Assembly (NCBI GenBank): GCA_900113385.1 | Contig: FOPE01000001.1 | Location: 25,029-89,028, forward strand | Source of the DNA: Lachnospiraceae bacterium C7 | GTDB lineage: Bacteria; Bacillota; Clostridia; Lachnospirales; Lachnospiraceae | Reading direction: 5' to 3' | Length of the DNA stretch: 64,000 bases | Shown: piece after piece, positions 993 through 19,755 of the stretch | Position numbering within the stretch: the stretch's first letter is position 1 | How the letters are laid out: each line of letters begins with the position of its first letter | Made by a program: the position numbers and the translations under genes | The notes under the pieces: generated by a model | Databases searched by the model: none | Seen by the model: the letters and a program-made list of their open reading frames with translations, nothing else | Told to the model about the DNA's origin: nothing

Positions 993-1970
993 GATCCAGT
1001 AAATCTATCTTCAGGAAACTTTATCTACCAAAAGACAGATTTATACTATGGATCAGACGAGGATGATGGAGACCTTGTATTTTCACGATTCTACAATTCT
1101 ATCAATGATTTTGAAGGAATTTTAGGAAAAGATTGGAATACTAACTTTGAAGTATGTCTAAAATTTGAAAAGGATGAAATAACTCCTGATGATATAGATG
1201 TAGTAGTTTTTAAAGAAGATGGACAAGAAGAAAAATTTATGCCACTTAAAGATGGTTATTACACAGCTGGTAGAGAAAGTACAGCATCTCTTAAAAAAAT
1301 AGAAGAAGATGACTATGAATATAAGTATGAAACATTAGATGGAGCAGTTTATCTATTTGACAAAAAAGGTAAATTATTACGTCAAGAAGACCTAAATGGG
1401 GTTGGATTGTCATTTAATTGTGCTATAATGGATTGTGTTCGATGTAATTTAAAACATTTGAACGAAGACAAGGAACATTCTGTTGAAGAATCAGACAATC
1501 CGACTGCATTAGAGCCAAAAGAACTTTTAGTAGAAGTCGTTGGAGACTATGGTCAGAAGTTTACACTTGATTATTATCAAGATGGTAAACTAAAGAGTGT
1601 AACTGATGAAGTGGGAAGAAGTGCGACATATAAATATACAGATGGATATTTAACAGAAGTTACAAGACCAGATGGACAATCATTTAAGTATACATATGAT
1701 GTACATGGGAAATTTAGAACAGTAGAGAACCCACGAGAAATTGTAACAGTGGACAATGTATACGATGATAAGGCGAGAACTACATATCAGACATTTGCAG
1801 ACGGTTCTCATATGTCATTTGATTATGATGATGAAAAGAAAACAGTTACAATGACTGAGCGTAATGGGGCAAAAAGTATTCATTATCATGATGAGTTTTA
1901 TAGAAATACAAAAACGCAGATTACAAATCCTATGTCAATAGCACAAATGCAGAGAGATATCACTTCTTAA
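978..1970 (+). pseudogene. Rhs/YD-repeat protein fragment, 5'-truncated and frameshifted
   Basis: The frame encodes the start of an Rhs core: a DUF6531-like entry (DPVNLSSGNF, then FSRFYNSINDF and LGKDW) followed by YD-type repeats (YKYTDGYLTEVTRPDGQSF, KYTYDVHGKF). Rhs proteins are very large secreted or surface toxins with a variable C-terminal toxic tip. Here the N-terminal half is missing; the only possible start, TTG at 978, lies inside a terminator arm. The frame ends early near 1970, while the Rhs reading continues in another frame. I read it as a dead fragment rather than a working gene. Confidence 0.7.
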
Positions 1971-1990
1971 ACGATGATCTAGGAAGCACA

Positions 1991-2458
1991 ATGCGTATGT
2001 CAAATGGAGTAGGAGCTTTGCAGGCTACATACGGCTATTGCTATAACAATGGCGTACTAAGTGTAGATTTAAATGGTATGTGGCCAAATCCAGTTAAGTG
2101 GGTTAAGAATAAGGCAAAAAAGGCTGCTAAGGCGGTTGGAGGTGCTGTTAATAAAGCCGGTAAAGCATGGAATAAGTTTTATACAAAGAATAAGGATGTA
2201 GTAAATATAGTTGGTGGTATTGCAGTTATAGGTGCAGGAACAGTGCTTGCACCACTAGTTGGAGCTTCAGCAGCTGCAGTAGCAATAAGTGGTACAACAG
2301 CGGCTGTAATAGGTGGATTATCCAATATGACTACTGGCGGAAGCTTCTCCGATGGATTCCTTGGCGAAGCAGTAAATGGAACGATATTTTCGATATTGTC
2401 GAACTATTTTTTTGATGAGAAATCTAAGGAAAAGGTGGGAACGGTAGAATGCAATTAG
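1991..2458 (+). pseudogene. Rhs C-terminal fragment with glycine-rich pre-toxin segment
   Basis: The frame is open from 1904 and reads RYHFLNDDLGSTMRM before the ATG at 1991, a typical end-of-Rhs-core motif out of frame with the fragment upstream. It then jumps to DLNGMWPNPVKWVKNKAKKA, skipping the roughly 100-residue hyperconserved Rhs core end. A Lys/Ala-rich stretch and a hydrophobic Gly/Ala segment (GGIAVIGAGTVLAPLVGASA, about residues 77-115) follow, as in membrane-active or pre-toxin regions. It ends at 2458, overlapping the next small ORF. It is probably a deletion derivative; translation from 1991 cannot be excluded. Confidence 0.6.
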
Positions 2459-11589: not shown

Positions 11590-12513
11590 ATGGATACAAA
11601 TATTCTGTTAGAATCAGGAACAAATGAATTAGAACTGTTAGAGTTCACTTTAGGTGATAATCATTATGGAATCAACGTTGCAAAAATAAGAGAGATTTTA
11701 CAATTTCAACAAATCACACCAGTTCCAAACTCTCACCCAAGTGTTGAAGGAATATTTATGCCAAGGGATACAATGATTACTGTAATCAGTTTGAAAAGAT
11801 GCCTAGGTTTACCAGATTCACCAGGTGAGGGACTATTTATCATTACAAACTTTAACAAGTTAAATGTTGCGTTTCACGTTGATCAAGTGCTAGGAATTCA
11901 TCGTGTATCATGGGATGCAATTATTAAACCAGATGCAACAATTAATGCTCAAGATAGTAGTACATCTACTGGTGTTATTAAATTAGGTGAAAAATTAGTA
12001 GTTATTCTCGACTTCGAATCAATCGTTTCTGGAATAAGCCCTGAGACAGGATTAAGAGTTGCAGATGTTGATATGATGAAAGAAGAAAGAAGTCGTGGCG
12101 ATTCTACAATTCTTATTGCAGAGGATTCACCACTTCTTAGTAAACTTATTACAGATTGTCTTAAAAAGGCAGGTTATACAAAGCTTATTGTTAATGGAAA
12201 TGGCCAGGAGGCCTGGGACAAGCTAAGAGCAATGAAGAAAGAAGGCAATGTTGCTCATAAAGTTGACTGTATAGTAACTGATATTGAGATGCCGATGATG
12301 GATGGTCATAGATTGACGAAACTGGTCAAGAGTGATGATGAAATGAAAGAAATTCCACTTATTATCTTCTCTTCATTGGTAAATGATGAGATGAGAAGAA
12401 AAGGTGAAAGCCTTGGTGCAGATGCACAGCTTACAAAACCAGAAATTGGTCAACTAGTATCAGCAATTGACGATTTGATCGATAAAGCTCATAGTGCTAG
12501 AGCAGGCGCATAA
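11590..12513 (+). CDS. cheV: Chemotaxis protein CheV (CheW-receiver fusion)
   Basis: This 307-aa protein couples receptors to CheA and contributes to adaptation. The N-terminal CheW domain (residues 14-150) includes ELLEFTLGDNHYGINVAKIR and GIFMPRDTMITVISLKRCLG. The C-terminal receiver domain (about 175-300) has phospho-acceptor Asp231 (IVTDIEMPMMDGH) and Lys in LTKPEIG. It is preceded by a GGGGAGGAG RBS and ends in its own terminator, so it is a single-gene unit separate from the main che genes. Confidence 0.95.
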   Translation: MDTNILLESGTNELELLEFTLGDNHYGINVAKIREILQFQQITPVPNSHPSVEGIFMPRDTMITVISLKRCLGLPDSPGEGLFIITNFNKLNVAFHVDQVLGIHRVSWDAIIKPDATINAQDSSTSTGVIKLGEKLVVILDFESIVSGISPETGLRVADVDMMKEERSRGDSTILIAEDSPLLSKLITDCLKKAGYTKLIVNGNGQEAWDKLRAMKKEGNVAHKVDCIVTDIEMPMMDGHRLTKLVKSDDEMKEIPLIIFSSLVNDEMRRKGESLGADAQLTKPEIGQLVSAIDDLIDKAHSARAGA

Positions 12514-12659: not shown

Positions 12660-15074
12660 ATGGATAAGCATCCAGAAGAGGATTACTTAGATGATTTACT
12701 TAAATCTGTAGATGATGATACAAGTTTAGATGAAAAAATAAAAAGTTCCAGAGCACAAGCACTTTCAGCCAATCATGTAGACCAAAAAGTTGATCCTAAA
12801 AAAGTATTTTCAGCTAATTCAGCAGACGATTTTTTAAGGGAATTTGAAGAAGAATTAGAGGCCGAAAAAAATAACTCTATGGAATTTGAACTTGAAAATA
12901 GTATTCAAAGTGATTTGGATATATTTGACGAAGAAATTCCACAAAAATCAAAACAAGATGATATTTTTAAAACTGATGATGGACAAGAGATTGCAGAATT
13001 GTTAGGTAGAGAAGAACTAAATGGGGTAGATGATGGACAAAGTTTAGACGAATCAGATGATGCAAGTGATGTGCCAGAATCCCCTATAATTTTAGAAACA
13101 ACAAAAGATATTGGTCAGGAGATAGATGATACACTTTTAGAAGATAGCGAAACACAAGATTTAAGTCAAAAGCTAGAAAGCCTAGACTCATCGTTAGATG
13201 ATGTAATTGAATCGGATGAAATCCCCAAAAATGATGATGAGTTAGGTGATGAACTAGATATAGAAAATGAACTAGATGCAAATGACGAATTAGACGTAGG
13301 CGATGAGTTAGACATAAATGATGAATTAGATAGTAATATTGATACATTAGATATGGATTTAGGCCAGGATCTTGATGGTGAAGAAAAGGCAGAAAAACAA
13401 CTAGAGGATTTAGTAAGCCAGCTTGATGATATATCTGAGTTAGAACCAGAGCTAGAATTGGAGCCAGAGCCTGAAATAGAATCGGAGCCTGAGTTAGAAC
13501 AGGAGCCAGAGCCAGAACAGGAGCCAGAGCCTGAAATAGAATCGGAGCCTGAGTTAGAACAGGAGCCTGAGCCAGAACTAGAAATAGAACCAGAGCCTGA
13601 GTTAGAACCAGAGCCCGAGCTAGAACAAGAACAGGAGTTAGAATCAGAACCAGAGCTAGAGCTAGAATCAGAGCCCGAGTCTGAAGAACTAGAAGAAATC
13701 CCAGTAGATAATTTAGAAACAGAAGAAGTTAAAGAATCAGAACCAGAAGATTTAAATATAAAAGAAAAGAAACAAGATTTGATGGCGGAATTAGATGACT
13801 TACTTGAGGAAGCAGGAGAACCAAGAATAGAAAAAGAAAGTAATATCAGTCAGATGGATGTTTCCCTCGATGATGCTGATATTCCACAAGAAGAAGGTGA
13901 AATAGATTTGGCTGAAAACGATGAAAAAGAATTAGAAAGTATATTAGGAGGCGCAGAAGAAGGCGCAGATGAAGGATTTAGTTTAGATGATGATTTAGAC
14001 TTAGAATCATTATTTGGAGATGATTTAGGTGAAGACCTAGGAGATGAATTGAATTTAGAAGCTGAAAAAGATGGGGATTCACAAGCAACAGACGAAAAAG
14101 CAAGTGAAGAGGCAAGCGAAGAGTCGTCTGAAGAAACATCTTCTGATGAGAAGGCAGAGGAAGAAGCCTCCGAAGAAGAGGAAGATGAGGGAAAAGGCAA
14201 AAAGAAAAAAAAGAAAAAGAAAAAAGAAAAAAAAGGTGAAGATGGCGAAAAAGGTGGATTCTTTAGCAAGTTAAAGGCCATGCTCTTTGGACCTGATGAC
14301 GATGAAGATGATAAAGTTGATTTAAATGCATCAAATGACGCAAATGCAGAGGGATTATCAGCTGAAAATGCGGCTATTTTGGCAGAACTAGGAATGACAG
14401 GCGATGAAGGTGCAGATAAAAAAGGCAAAAAGAAAAAAGAAAAGAAGAAAAAAGAGAAAAAAGAGAAAAAACCAAAGAAAGAGAAACCACCAAAGGAGAA
14501 AAAACCGAAAAAGCCAAAGAAAGAAAAGAAACCAAAAGAAGTGGATAAAACACCTCCTTTACCAAAAGGACCAGTTATTGTTATATGGATAATGGCGTTT
14601 TCATTAATAGTATTTATTTATCTTGGAACTACACTATTAAGAGGTCAGATGCTTGTAAAGGCTGGAAAGAAAGCATATACAGACAAAGATTATACAAAAG
14701 CATATCAGTCTTTAACAGGGCTAAAATTAAATGAAGAAGACCAAAAACTTTATGTGAAAACAGAAGTTTTAGGTAGTGTTGAAGGAAGATATGAAGCTTA
14801 TAAGACATTATATGACAATCATAAATATGCAATGGCTTTAGATGCGTTAGTTTGTGGAAAAGGACGTTGTCAGAATTATGAGGAGACTGCAAAAAAATAT
14901 AAGTGCACAGATGAATTAAAAGAATTAGAACATAAGATAGATGTGGCGTTGCAGGATTCTTTTGGGGTATCGCCAGAACAGGCTAAACAGTGGTATAATA
15001 TGGGTGACTGGGATCAATATTCCCTAGAAATCTATAAACGAGTAAAGGAGCTAGGACTACTCGAAGAAAGTTAG
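12660..15074 (+). CDS. Large Glu-rich single-TM protein with Lys-rich segments
   Basis: This is an 804-aa protein of unknown function. Residues 1-500 are extremely acidic; residues about 258-345 are built from EPEPE/ELEPEPE-type repeats. Two Lys tracts (about 518-530 and 580-625) flank a short [20 protein letters not shown] segment. One membrane helix (about 637-658, [18 protein letters not shown]) precedes a C-terminal domain of about 140 residues that looks TPR-like ([27 protein letters not shown]). There is no signal peptide, so the acidic part is probably cytoplasmic. GGAGG lies 10 nt upstream of ATG. hisH follows 12 bp downstream. Confidence 0.85.
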
Positions 15075-16546: not shown

Positions 16547-17221
16547 ATGAAAGTAACAAACGATTGGAAAGACGTGCTAGAAAAAGAATATAGCAAACCA
16601 TATTATAAAGAATTGTATGAATTTGTCTTAAAAGAATATGAAACACAAACAATTTATCCGACTTCAGATAACATCTTTAATGCACTTCATTTAACACCGC
16701 TTAAAGATGTAAAGGTTCTTATTTTAGGACAAGATCCATATCATAATGAAAATCAAGCACATGGTCTAAGTTTTTCGGTATTACCAAGTCAAAAGGTAAT
16801 TCCACCATCTCTTCAGAATATTTATAAAGAGTTGCAAGATGATTTGAATTGTTATATTCCAAATAATGGATTTTTGGAAAAATGGGCAAAGCAAGGTGTG
16901 TTAATGCTAAATACTGTCTTAACAGTTAGAGCACATCAAGCTAATTCTCACAAGGGTAAAGGCTGGGAGCAGTTTACAGATGCTATTATTAGAGCAGTAA
17001 ATGAAAAAGATTCTCCAGTTGTATATATGTTATGGGGACGTCCAGCTCAGACAAAAGAGAAAATGCTAAATAATCCAAAACATCTAGTTTTAAAGGCACC
17101 ACATCCAAGCCCATTATCTGCTTATAGAGGATTCTTTGGATGCAAACATTTTAGCTCAGCTAACGAATTTTTACAAGAAAATGGGTTAGATCCAATTGAT
17201 TGGCAAATCGAAAATATATAA
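16547..17221 (+). CDS. ung: Uracil-DNA glycosylase, family 1
   Basis: The enzyme removes uracil from DNA as the first step of base excision repair. The 224-aa length is typical. It has the water-activating motif GQDPYH (Asp63), the uracil-recognition segment VLMLNTVLTVRAHQANSH, and the minor-groove loop HPSPLSAYRGFFGCKHFS. It starts 18 bp after hisF and is probably read from the same transcript. Confidence 0.97.
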   Translation: MKVTNDWKDVLEKEYSKPYYKELYEFVLKEYETQTIYPTSDNIFNALHLTPLKDVKVLILGQDPYHNENQAHGLSFSVLPSQKVIPPSLQNIYKELQDDLNCYIPNNGFLEKWAKQGVLMLNTVLTVRAHQANSHKGKGWEQFTDAIIRAVNEKDSPVVYMLWGRPAQTKEKMLNNPKHLVLKAPHPSPLSAYRGFFGCKHFSSANEFLQENGLDPIDWQIENI

Positions 17222-17226
17222 AAGGC

Positions 17227-17254
17227 TAAAGAAAAAAAGCAACTTAACCGATAG
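17227..17254 (+). promoter_or_regulatory. Candidate sigma-28 (flagellar) promoter
   Basis: TAAA (17227-17230), a 16-nt spacer and ACCGATAG (17247-17254) approximate the sigma-D/FliA consensus TAAA-N15-GCCGATAA. It lies just after ung and 86 bp before the FliD-like gene, consistent with a late flagellar gene. Confidence 0.5.
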
Positions 17255-17269
17255 TAAGATTGAGATACT

Positions 17270-17332
17270 ATAGACATGGAAGTCTATGTAATGTAAGTGA
17301 TGGAACGGTGTAGTTTCATGGATGAAAGGAGA
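17270..17332 (+). promoter_or_regulatory. Leader with CsrA-type binding hairpin
   Basis: ATAGAC (17270-17275) and GTCTAT (17282-17287) form a 6-bp stem with loop ATGGAA. The segment ACATGGAAGT matches the CsrA consensus ACAnGGAnGT with GGA in the loop. A second CATGGATG lies at 17318-17325, next to the Shine-Dalgarno AAAGGAG (17326-17332). Two GGA sites, one beside the RBS, is the usual arrangement for CsrA translational repression. Confidence 0.45.
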
Positions 17333-17339
17333 GTTGCTT

Positions 17340-18113
17340 ATGCCAACAATTTCAGGTTACGATTCGTCGTCACTAGGAGTATTATTTTCAAGTTTAAATA
17401 AAAATGACAAGAAAAATAATAATTATATGGCAAACATGTATGCTTTATCATCTGACTACAGTACTATAAAAAGTGGTTCATATGGTAAACTTATGAAGTC
17501 TTATTTTGCTAAGGTAGCAAATGCTTCAGAAGATGATAGTAAAGATTCATCTAAAAAAACTGTAGTAGATACGTTGTTTGACAAAAATAATACATCAACA
17601 TCAACTTCTAAAGATACATCTAAAACTCTTGCTTCTATTAAAGGAGAAGCGGGAGAAATAGTTGAAACATCTAAAAAGCTTTATACGAATACCTCATTAT
17701 TTACTGATAAAACAAGTGAGGAAGAACAGTTAAAAGCTATAAAGAATTTTGTGGATGACTATAATTCTGTAGTTGAGACAGGCGAAAAGGCTAAATCAAG
17801 TTCTATTGAAAGCGCAGTAAATAAGCTAGAAAATGCCACAAATAATAACAAAAAACTTTTGACAGCAGTAGGAATAAATGTAAAGGAAGATAATACTTTA
17901 GAGATTGATGAAGAAAGTTTTAAAAAAGCAGACAAATCAACTTTAAAAACTTTATTTACTGGAACAGGTTCATACGCATATTCAGTAGGAGTAAATGCTT
18001 CTATGATTAAAATGAATGCAGAAAATGAAGCTGCTAAAGCAAATACTTATGGCGCTTCGGGATCTTATTCATATACATATTCGAATGGATCAATTTTTAA
18101 TAACTATACATAA
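17340..18113 (+). CDS. FliD C-terminal-like protein, probable late flagellar gene
   Basis: ATG 17340 (MPTISGYDSSSLG) follows AAAGGAGAG at good spacing and gives 257 aa. There is no signal peptide or membrane helix. The second half resembles the end of FliD filament caps: FVDDYNSVVE, LLTAVGINVKEDNTLEIDEESFKKADKSTLKTLFTG (read from 17842 on). A Tyr/Ser/Gly-rich tail (YGASGSYSYTYSNGS) follows. It lacks the large FliD head domains, so it is not a normal cap. A sigma-28-type promoter and CsrA-like site upstream support a flagellar-export-linked role. Confidence 0.65.
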   Translation: MPTISGYDSSSLGVLFSSLNKNDKKNNNYMANMYALSSDYSTIKSGSYGKLMKSYFAKVANASEDDSKDSSKKTVVDTLFDKNNTSTSTSKDTSKTLASIKGEAGEIVETSKKLYTNTSLFTDKTSEEEQLKAIKNFVDDYNSVVETGEKAKSSSIESAVNKLENATNNNKKLLTAVGINVKEDNTLEIDEESFKKADKSTLKTLFTGTGSYAYSVGVNASMIKMNAENEAAKANTYGASGSYSYTYSNGSIFNNYT

Positions 18114-18231
18114 ATTTGCAAAAAAATATTTTGGAAACTAATTTTGTATAATAAATTAGAAAGTAAGAATATTAAAAGCAGAATACGTAGGTCGTTAGAG
18201 TACTTAAAAAAACGCATAATATATAATAAAA

Positions 18232-18292
18232 GAAGCCAGGGAGCGCATTAATAAAAAAACAATAAATTAATGCAATTCCTGGTTGCTTTTTT
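18232..18292 (+). terminator. Rho-independent terminator
   Basis: AAGCCAGGGA plus GCATTAAT (18233-18251) pair with ATTAATGC (18266-18273 region) and TTCCTGGTTGCTTTTTT, giving a long stem with a small internal mismatch and T-run. It lies about 120 bp after the FliD-like gene. Confidence 0.7.
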
Positions 18293-18310
18293 GTTTTACA
18301 ATGCTATAAT
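18283..18310 (+). promoter_or_regulatory. Candidate sigma-A promoter for MATE gene
   Basis: TTGCTT (18283-18288), a 16-nt spacer and TATAAT (18305-18310). The -35 overlaps the right arm of the upstream terminator. Confidence 0.45.
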
Positions 18311-18387: not shown

Positions 18388-19755
18388 ATGGAAGTAAAAA
18401 ACAAAAACGCAATAACAACTGGCGTAATATGGAAACAAATTTTAATATTTTTCTTTCCTATCCTTATAGGTGCATTTTTTCAGACACTATACAATACAGT
18501 AGATGCTGCTGTAGTTGGTAAATTTGCAGGAACAGAAGCACTTGCAAGTGTAGGTGGTTCATCAGGTCAAATCCTAAATTTTGTATTTAGTTTTTTCATG
18601 GGACTTGCTACTGGTGCCACAGTAATCATTGCTCAACATTTTGGAGCTAATGAATACGAAAAAGTAGATGATGCTTTGCATACAGCATATACTTTCGGAT
18701 TAGTTGGTGGTATCATACTTGGAATTATAGGTATTATATTTGTTAAACCTTTACTTAATTTATTAAAAACACCTAGTAATTTAATGGATGGTTCTACAAT
18801 TTATGTTAGGATTTTATTTGCCGGATTAGTTTTTACATTGATTTATAATATGGGTGCTGGTATTTTAAGAGCAATAGGAGATTCAAAACGTCCACTATAT
18901 ATATTAATAGTATGTTGTGGAGTTAATATTATTTTAGATGTAATTTTTGTAATGGTTTTAAAAATGGGAGTAACAGGCGCAGGAATTGCAACTGATATTT
19001 CTCAAGCATTAAGTGCAATTCTTGTAACTTGGCTTCTTATGAAGAAAACAGTAGGCATGAAGCTATCAATAGCAAAGCTACATATAAATATAAAAACATT
19101 AAATCGTATTTTAAAAATTGGATTACCTACTGCAATTGCAGGAAGTATGTTTTCGGTTTCAAATATGATAGTACAAACATCGCTCAATCAAATGGGTGTA
19201 AATGTTGTTGCAGCATGGACAGCTTACGGTAGGATAGATGCTTTGTGGTGGATGATAAATCAAGCATTTTCTGTATCTATTACTACTTTTGTTGGACAAA
19301 ATTATGGCGCTGGACTTCCAAAAAGAATAAGAAAAGCAGTTGCAGAAGTACTTGCAATGGAAATGGGAACAGGATTAATTTTGGCAGTAGTGTTTATTGC
19401 TTTTGCGCCTAAACTTCTTGGAATGTTTGCTAGCAGTAGTGAGGTAATAGATATAGGTGTTCAAATTTCTAAGTTATTGCCACCATTTTATGCAGTATTT
19501 GCTATATCAGAGATTCTATCAGCAACACTTAGGGCCGAAAACTATGTTATGGTTGCTACAGTTTCTAATTTGTTAGGAATATGTGCTTTTAGAATTATTT
19601 GGGTAGAGTTTATAGTTCCAAATGCAGGAATGATGCAAATTCTTAAATGTTATCCAATCAGCTGGGTGTTAGTGTCCCTTTTGGTTTTAGGTTATTACAT
19701 AGTTATGCAACCAAGAATTTTACGTGGACTTCATAAACAGGTTCAGGTAAGTTAA
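18388..19755 (+). CDS. MATE family efflux transporter
   Basis: This 455-aa integral membrane protein has about 12 hydrophobic helices in two homologous halves. Family features include FFPILIGAFFQTLYNTVDAA near the N-terminus, VVGKFAGTEALASVG, and a second-half repeat SMFSVSNMIVQTSLNQMG. MATE proteins export drugs or metabolites in exchange for Na+ or H+; the substrate cannot be inferred. RBS AGAGGTG precedes ATG. It appears monocistronic. Confidence 0.93.
   Translation: MEVKNKNAITTGVIWKQILIFFFPILIGAFFQTLYNTVDAAVVGKFAGTEALASVGGSSGQILNFVFSFFMGLATGATVIIAQHFGANEYEKVDDALHTAYTFGLVGGIILGIIGIIFVKPLLNLLKTPSNLMDGSTIYVRILFAGLVFTLIYNMGAGILRAIGDSKRPLYILIVCCGVNIILDVIFVMVLKMGVTGAGIATDISQALSAILVTWLLMKKTVGMKLSIAKLHINIKTLNRILKIGLPTAIAGSMFSVSNMIVQTSLNQMGVNVVAAWTAYGRIDALWWMINQAFSVSITTFVGQNYGAGLPKRIRKAVAEVLAMEMGTGLILAVVFIAFAPKLLGMFASSSEVIDIGVQISKLLPPFYAVFAISEILSATLRAENYVMVATVSNLLGICAFRIIWVEFIVPNAGMMQILKCYPISWVLVSLLVLGYYIVMQPRILRGLHKQVQVS

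Follow-up and report, generated by a model that had tools for sequence, protein, structure and literature searches.

A gene at positions 17,340 to 18,113 on the forward strand of the window (the whole stretch of 64,000 nucleotides that was analysed) encodes a 257-amino-acid protein whose core is predicted to adopt the fold of a complete FliD D1 domain. The proteins related to it occur, with one marginal exception, in genomes that also encode flagellin, and the leaders of their genes are enriched in hairpins that present GGA as CsrA sites do. On balance, we favour the reading that the product is a late flagellar accessory gated by CsrA and FliW, and that it is probably exported. The distribution, predicted fold, N-terminal module, leader enrichment and covariation described below were all computed in this study.

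The longest open reading frame begins at position 17,322. However, an ATG at 17,340, which sits 8 nucleotides 3' of the Shine-Dalgarno (SD) sequence AAAGGAG (17,325 to 17,331), is most likely the true start codon and yields the 257-amino-acid product. The gene stands alone between ung (uracil-DNA glycosylase; UDG, E 9.8e-19), which ends at 17,221, and a MatE transporter gene (E 1.3e-53), which starts at 18,388, with all three on the forward strand. A terminator-like stem followed by a run of T residues, located by sequence and folding, lies at 18,230 to 18,293 on this same strand. The flaG and fliD genes of this genome are carried on contig C67, and the placement of the gene outside the main flagellar operon by an earlier, sequence-only reading is thereby borne out. 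A search with Rfam at the gathering threshold yielded no family within the window. Elsewhere in the window, next to a CheW-response regulator fusion (11,590 to 12,513), lies the gene for an 804-amino-acid protein (12,660 to 15,074) that combines long acidic repeats of Glu and Pro with a region rich in Lys and a single probable membrane helix.

A FliD D1-like core and a conserved N-terminal module

The sequence-only reading had taken the protein to keep only the C-terminal part of a flagellar cap, and this part of it proved wrong. The core, comprising amino acids 94 to 234 (17,619 to 18,041, forward strand) and delimited by profile matches, an AlphaFold2 model and VIA-align, is instead predicted to form an entire FliD D1 domain, with D2-D3 missing. 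The model, made with a four-row alignment, has pLDDT values mostly above 90 for amino acids 90 to 236 and below 50 at both ends, including residues 1 to 89. Comparison of the model by VIA-align placed FliD or cap complexes in the top nine rows with Z values of 11.2 to 15.7, of which five exceed 13, the approximate value under which helical bundles can be background, and the ninth row has the same Z, 11.2, as the highest-ranked unrelated structure, a FAT domain. Five of these nine rows are titled FliD and four are cap or filament-assembly complexes, in which we take the matched chain to be FliD. The best row, 5h5v_A (E. coli FliD D1-D2-D3; Z 15.7, rmsd 2.2, 140 residues aligned), pairs residues 94..234 of the model with residues 44..411 of the chain. 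Because 140 model residues span this range of FliD, both halves of D1 appear to be present and the D2-D3 insertion appears to be missing. Foldseek matched nothing to the model at E<=0.001, and FliD was absent from its best 50 matches; VIA-align was run on Foldseek's own candidates, and FliD came top.

The window protein matches nothing above cut-off in Pfam or NCBIfam and has no match to Pfam FliD_C at E<=1. Among 37 aligned family members, 25 match FliD_C at E<0.01, a separate search with FliD_C placed several relatives above the Pfam cut-off, and five members match the NCBIfam model for hook-associated protein 2. A profile of the family run against solved structures matches FliD 5fhy (E 7.5e-6), which is presumably the Pseudomonas protein, and a profile-profile comparison between the family and FliD alignments gave a match of only 33 columns with a probability of 81%. 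We consider the resemblance to FliD to be real, as judged from the FliD_C matches together with the predicted D1 fold. Neither a FliD_N match nor a D0 domain was recognised in the window protein, although a model with such low pLDDT at its ends cannot show that D0 is absent, and no export signal was recognisable by sequence. In the S. enterica cap, D0-D1 form a plug beneath the D2-D3 plane, and D1 residues join the contacts with flagellin (passages of PMC12221982).

Amino acids 237 to 257 (18,048 to 18,110, forward strand) form a Tyr/Ser/Gly-rich C-terminal tail, as the sequence-only reading had proposed. The family alignment indicates that this aromatic tail is conserved in character and variable in sequence. 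The same genome carries a 191-amino-acid D1-only paralogue (L005; contig C81, open reading frame 1495-2070, reverse strand) that is more divergent and lacks the N-terminal module, and the DNA upstream of it contains a tandem repeat of about GATTCGGTTAATACGCT.

The most conserved stretch of the family is a module of 31 amino acids, LSDYxSIKNGSYxKLLKAYY, which was missed by the sequence-only reading and which a profile locates at amino acids 33 to 63 of the window protein (17,436 to 17,528, forward strand). A simple pattern for the module matches 88 of 92 family proteins, a few of them at places next to or away from the motif itself; of the four proteins without a match, three visibly bear a variant. 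The module also heads proteins of 129 to 169 amino acids without D1, nine of which were examined (L169, L171-L176, L178 and L180). Three of these from a single genus, g208 (L169, L171 and L180), are 142 to 160 amino acids long, with the module present and FliD D1 absent. Other family members have frames of about 370 to 450 amino acids, and one (L003) carries two D1 repeats. Because the module heads D1-less proteins, and because lengths and the number of D1 domains vary, sequence comparison suggests that the module is the constant element and D1 an optional payload. The module has no match among solved structures (best E 0.72), and Pfam reports nothing over cut-off for the nine module-only proteins. 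A GGA hairpin of at least three pairs is found upstream of four of the nine module-only genes (L169, with seven pairs, L173, L174 and L176) and is absent upstream of the other five. In its own genome, the window gene is the single match to the module profile.

Distribution among genomes with flagellin

A search with the window protein gave a match at E<=0.001 in 112 of the 299 genomes examined from the same bacterial family, which were sampled at about one per genus. A flagellin search of these same 299 genomes was positive for 156, and the D1 protein occurs in 111 of the 156 flagellin-positive genomes versus one of the 143 flagellin-negative genomes (Fisher p = 1.6e-43, to be read as 'very strong' and not literally because the genera are related). 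This co-occurrence upholds the flagellar association that had been proposed from sequence. The flagellin-negative exception (G048) is a marginal match (E 5.8e-4) in a genome without a match to the module. The module profile itself matches 113 of the 299 genomes, comprising 113 of the 156 with flagellin and none of the 143 lacking it. Of the 156 flagellin-positive genomes, 151 have a csrA gene, as do three flagellin-negative genomes; no csrA match was obtained in four genomes that encode the D1 protein (G137, G168, G240 and, with its marginal match, G048). A search of 391 genomes of the class with the family profile gave 18 matches at E<=1e-5, of which 13 lie within the same bacterial family. 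The five others are weak (E 5e-7 to 5e-6), with frames of 391 to 661 amino acids, and are perhaps FliD or FliD-like proteins. The protein family seems to occur mainly within a single bacterial family, taken to be Lachnospiraceae.

The gene set used for leader and module counts comprises 92 genes, namely two close relatives found by a search of genome contigs, 30 loci including the window gene, and 60 further rows to E 4.3e-17. It omits five rows above E 4.3e-17 (four frames of 374 to 410 amino acids, and G108:C13) and all weaker rows. Leader counts are based on the 89 genes that have 150 nucleotides of upstream sequence. Some genomes carry several diverged copies of the D1 protein, and copy numbers per genome are lower bounds, with at most eight candidates scored in each.

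Leaders and promoters

The promoter boxes, the GGA hairpin and the GGA near the ribosome binding site that the sequence-only reading had named are all present where it had placed them. Hairpin 1, TATAGAC-ATGGAA-GTCTATG (17,269 to 17,288, forward strand), was identified by folding as a seven-pair stem, with an outermost T-G pair, that closes an ATGGAA hexaloop of the CsrA-site type and contains ACATGGAAGT at 17,274 to 17,283. When folded alone it has a free energy of -5.7 kcal/mol, and its inner six pairs are present in both the minimum free energy (MFE) and centroid structures of the leader. The loop A lies at -64 relative to the start codon, and the GGA of the hairpin lies 50 nucleotides from that of the SD sequence. 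Further GGAs occur at 17,302, at 17,320 and inside the SD sequence, which holds the fourth. A competing stem predicted by folding, ATGGAAC-GGTGTA-GTTTCAT (17,300 to 17,319, forward strand), hides the second GGA (17,302 to 17,304). A possible hairpin 2, TTTC-ATGGAT-GAAA (17,314 to 17,327, forward strand), has a loop at -22 and a 3' arm that overlaps the SD sequence, and is absent from the MFE structure because the stem from the second GGA competes with it. The notion that hairpin 2 equals hairpin 1 in quality was rejected, as folding gave it no support. The 85-nucleotide leader is no stabler than its shuffled versions (z -0.76; 44 of 200 shuffles are at least as stable). The case against chance from this single leader alone is weak, and across the relatives the signal is far above chance.

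An ANGGAN hexaloop hairpin with a stem of at least three pairs is present between -100 and -20 in 42 of the 89 family leaders, or in 41 of 88 when the window gene is left out. Corresponding values for the controls are a mean of 2.2 and a maximum of 7 for dinucleotide shuffles, 1 for the opposite strand, 4 for reversed sequences and 9 of 77 for neighbouring genes. When CANGGANG is required, hairpins are found in 31 of 89 leaders versus 0.2 expected. We counted against our main explanation that 47 of the 89 leaders have no such hairpin between -100 and -20, and that 32 have none anywhere in the 150 nucleotides. Hairpins upstream of -20 cluster at -41 to -32 (32 of 52), with a peak at -36. Over the 44 leaders that have both parts, the median distance from the hairpin GGA to the SD GGA is 22 nucleotides, with 24 of the 44 at 20 to 23. 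The SD sequence lies inside a second ANGGAN-type hexaloop hairpin in 34 of 89 leaders versus 6 of 77 neighbours, and the SD site is TCAAAGGAGTG or a close variant in 26 of 89, figures that may be inflated by the SD-favouring rule used to pick start codons. Compensatory variation was evaluated at 62 sites chosen regardless of pairing, and pairs were counted on ungapped sequences because gaps disrupt the hairpin's 3' arm in the MAFFT alignment A4. Flank pairs 1, 2 and 3 are Watson-Crick in 50, 46 and 40 of these sites, compared with permuted means of 25, 19 and 20 and permuted maxima of 37, 31 and 32.

The nine neighbouring control genes that carry a hairpin are not family members; several resemble other unnamed proteins, which could be co-regulated. 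Three neighbouring open reading frames with GGA hairpins of their own (at 825 in L037, 2249 in L056 and 2181 in L093) have a common ending like ETxDAxNKLFDEYY and may form a second unnamed, co-regulated family next to the target.

CsrA sites preferred in SELEX experiments are six-nucleotide GGA loops closed by AC/GU (in the part of PMC7652899 used here), and the predicted sites for CsrA in the Clostridioides difficile fliC leader, TGACAAGGATGT and CTAAGGAGGG, resemble the GACAAGGATGTC of the window family (likewise from part of PMC8523840). Family leader features match such published sites in the hexaloop, the spacing and the likeness to fliC. We hold with good confidence that the leaders of the family as a whole are under CsrA control. 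The leader of the window gene has an atypical spacing, with loops at -64 and -22 versus about -36 and -15 in the family. Because its hairpin 1 is far from the SD sequence and its hairpin 2 is competed out, CsrA control of the window gene itself is less sure and is, in our judgement, somewhat more likely than not. The earlier claim of a CsrA-type leader is thus sustained by the frequency of the upstream hairpin in relatives and tempered by the leaders that lack it and by the different spacing in the window.

The window promoter has a -35-like TAAA at 17,227 to 17,230, a spacer of 16 nucleotides and ACCGATAG at 17,247 to 17,254, or equivalently TAAA-N17-CCGATA, with the -10-like CCGATA at 17,248 to 17,253 on the forward strand. 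It fits TAAA(N16-17)MCGATAa, the sigma-28 pattern of Butyrivibrio fibrisolvens according to a portion of PMC3720852. Matches to TAAA-N14-17-CCGATA across the whole genome number 47 versus 59 in a reversed control, and this pattern was ruled out as proof on a genome-wide scale. Among the 89 family leaders, exact sigma-28-like promoters (TAAA-N15-17, with C or A as the first -10 base) occur in 10 versus 0.2 expected, and those with up to one mismatch occur in 39 versus 7.4 expected. The sigma-28-like promoter that had been proposed is present in the window and of a class enriched in relatives, but sigma-A-like promoters with up to two mismatches are enriched as well (32 of 89 versus 7.5 expected), which we counted against the main explanation. 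The same applies to a relative from the same genus (L008), which has a sigma-A-like promoter and a hairpin at the SD site only. In some leaders (L002, L010 and L062, the last with three sigma-A mismatches) both promoter types overlap, with the sigma-28-like CCGATA nested within the sigma-A-like spacer (TTG...CCGATAat...TATAAT), an arrangement that suggests dual promoters. Flagellin genes of Roseburia and Eubacterium are predicted to have mostly sigma-28 and some sigma-43 promoters (PMC3720852, in part). Because promoters in the family mix sigma-28- and sigma-A-like forms, the CsrA-type leader may be a more general link to flagellar assembly than the sigma factor.

The sequence-only reading had left the presence of csrA and fliW in the genome to be checked, and both are present and adjacent, in the order fliW (E 1e-33), csrA (E 1e-25), flaG (E 9.2e-23) and canonical fliD (contig C67, 495 amino acids, with both FliD_N and FliD_C). 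Flagellin_N is found in four places in this genome, one of which is a flgL-like gene. A covariance model (R1) was built from 30 of 32 hairpin leaders, which were selected for the hairpin and include none from this genome, nor the flagellin leaders that the model found. When R1 was applied to the genome, with 150 of 2115 first-look candidates scored, eight matches were obtained at E<=10. The two highest-scoring matches, at 31.3 bits (E 0.012) and 29.6 bits (E 0.026) with the third at 23.9 bits, correspond to the leaders of two genes of flagellin type whose products begin with MVVQHN, and one of these genes has TAAA-N16-CCGATA. The window leader was not reported at E<=10 among the candidates scored. 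A third flagellin gene, on contig C90, lacks this kind of hairpin and was likewise absent from the R1 matches, which was counted against the main explanation. Ahead of flaG, too, lie a promoter of the TAAA-N16-CCGATA pattern and, at the SD sequence, a GGA hairpin. Similar flagellin genes are present at C27:22016-23355 and at the end of C67; this contig ends within the gene, probably through an assembly break at a repeat.

Proposed role, alternatives and known systems

The mechanism that we infer, comprising CsrA binding, release by FliW, export and a location at the filament, would proceed as follows. Transcription would start from the sigma-28 promoter, or from sigma-A promoters in some relatives, and a CsrA dimer would bridge the hairpin GGA and the SD GGA, blocking ribosomes until the hook is complete. 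Flagellin would then leave the cell, and the freed FliW would remove CsrA. The protein would be made together with flagellin and exported by the flagellar secretion system, with the N-terminal module likely serving as an export signal or chaperone site, and its D1 domain could pack against D1 surfaces of flagellin or FliD on or near the filament. We give export itself about an even chance.

One alternative is that CsrA control in this species is a relic or is weak, since the spacing would no longer let one CsrA dimer bridge to the SD sequence. The loop positions, the 50 nucleotides between the two GGAs, the competing stem over the second GGA and the silence of R1 on this leader all speak for it, but hairpin 1 bears ACATGGAAGT and the six-nucleotide loop of the SELEX-preferred form (PMC7652899, same portion), and GGA remains in and beside the SD sequence; we regard this alternative as doubtful, if one to be taken seriously. 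The protein might also remain cytoplasmic and act as a regulator or as a partner resembling a chaperone, its D1 mimicking FliD or flagellin so as to titrate FliW, FliT or another export chaperone. This option, which we judge unlikely, draws on the small helical bundle that is predicted and on the lack of a recognisable D0. According to sections of PMC12221982, D0 domains form a constriction at the filament channel in the flagellar cap, so that a protein with no recognisable D0 would probably not form a cap by the established route. Yet a flagellin-type leader suits a protein made in quantity alongside flagellin, and diverged multiple copies with a variable aromatic tail suit an exposed one.

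The GGA hairpins could serve another RNA-binding factor, or simply keep the SD region open, as might be suspected from the four genomes that have a D1 protein but no csrA match. Three leaders from csrA-less genomes were checked, and the hairpin is present in one (L055) and absent in the other two. The latter result, and the agreement of the hexaloop, the CANGGANG core and the spacing with characterised CsrA targets, make this idea quite improbable. Most improbable is that the gene is a degenerate, functionless fliD paralogue. The missing D2 and D3, the more divergent second D1 protein (L005) and a relative (G276 C10) with an apparent frame-shift between module and D1 are what would be expected of decay, but the module persists in 113 of 299 genomes, leader changes are compensatory, and no internal stops occur among the matches listed.

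If the reading as a late, CsrA/FliW-gated accessory is right, the Lachnospiraceae flagellum or secretome would gain a further component, a flagellar protein that is widespread yet unnamed and that obeys the flagellin switch. Such a protein would extend CsrA/FliW control in Firmicutes past flagellin and would supply, in its module, a candidate recognition motif for flagellar export. More tentatively, Lachnospiraceae might possess a set of CsrA/FliW-gated, flagellum-exported proteins in which the 31-amino-acid export module is joined to exchangeable payloads (none, one or two FliD D1 domains); the flagellin checkpoint would then govern a small set of exported proteins beyond the filament itself. 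Among the prevalent gut commensals are motile Lachnospiraceae, Roseburia and Eubacterium rectale for example, and their flagellins are able to provoke host cells (as described in part of PMC3720852). Both FliD D1 and the hag-type leader are known already, whereas the literature searched describes neither their combination nor the D1-only architecture nor the module. That search covered titles and abstract openings of open-licence PMC articles, with most subscription journals outside it, and found no such protein and no Lachnospiraceae CsrA targets. The protein also has no Pfam or NCBIfam name, in agreement with the earlier view of an accessory not described as such.

Among known proteins, FliD (HAP2) shares with the window family the predicted complete D1 helical fold, the motif FVxxYN...GI...L.iDe..f..a...v..lF and a flagellum-linked distribution. 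In contrast to FliD, the family lacks D2-D3 and a FliD_N match, and has an extra N-terminal module and the aromatic tail; 89 of its 92 members are 224 to 290 amino acids long versus 494 to 818 for the FliDs of these genomes, and the window gene stands alone rather than near flaG as the canonical fliD does. A FliD-like protein from the same genome (L007/L158; C87:1978-3285, reverse strand) has a partial FliD_C match (E 5.7e-8) and, like the window family, a GGA hairpin touching the SD sequence and a tail with a short SG-hydrophobic end, SGMMLDDFA. It is longer (435 amino acids), and the N-terminal module was not reported there. The genes near it are presumably ribosomal-protein- and nusG-like. 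Two relatives of this protein (L144 and L148) end in SGMMFNSYC and SGLLFNSYC, which recall the SGSIFNSYF-like tails of the target family.

The CsrA/FliW-controlled hag (fliC) leader of Bacillus subtilis and C. difficile likewise has an upstream GGA, an SD-overlapping GGA and fliW-csrA in the genome. It differs in that its target is flagellin, whereas the target in the window family is another protein with a predicted CsrA site and, in the window, a different spacing. In Campylobacter jejuni, the mRNAs of FlaG, FlaB and FlgI bind CsrA, but their levels do not change substantially upon deletion of csrA alone, and effects on such minor targets appear mainly when FliW is missing (parts of PMC4894983). 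CsrA sites therefore need not mean control. Although C. jejuni belongs to another phylum and other genes are involved, its flaA GGA spacing of 21 nucleotides (same parts of PMC4894983) is close to the family median, and its CsrA targets flaA, flaG, flaB and flgI resemble the system proposed here in that they include late flagellar mRNAs besides that of the main flagellin.
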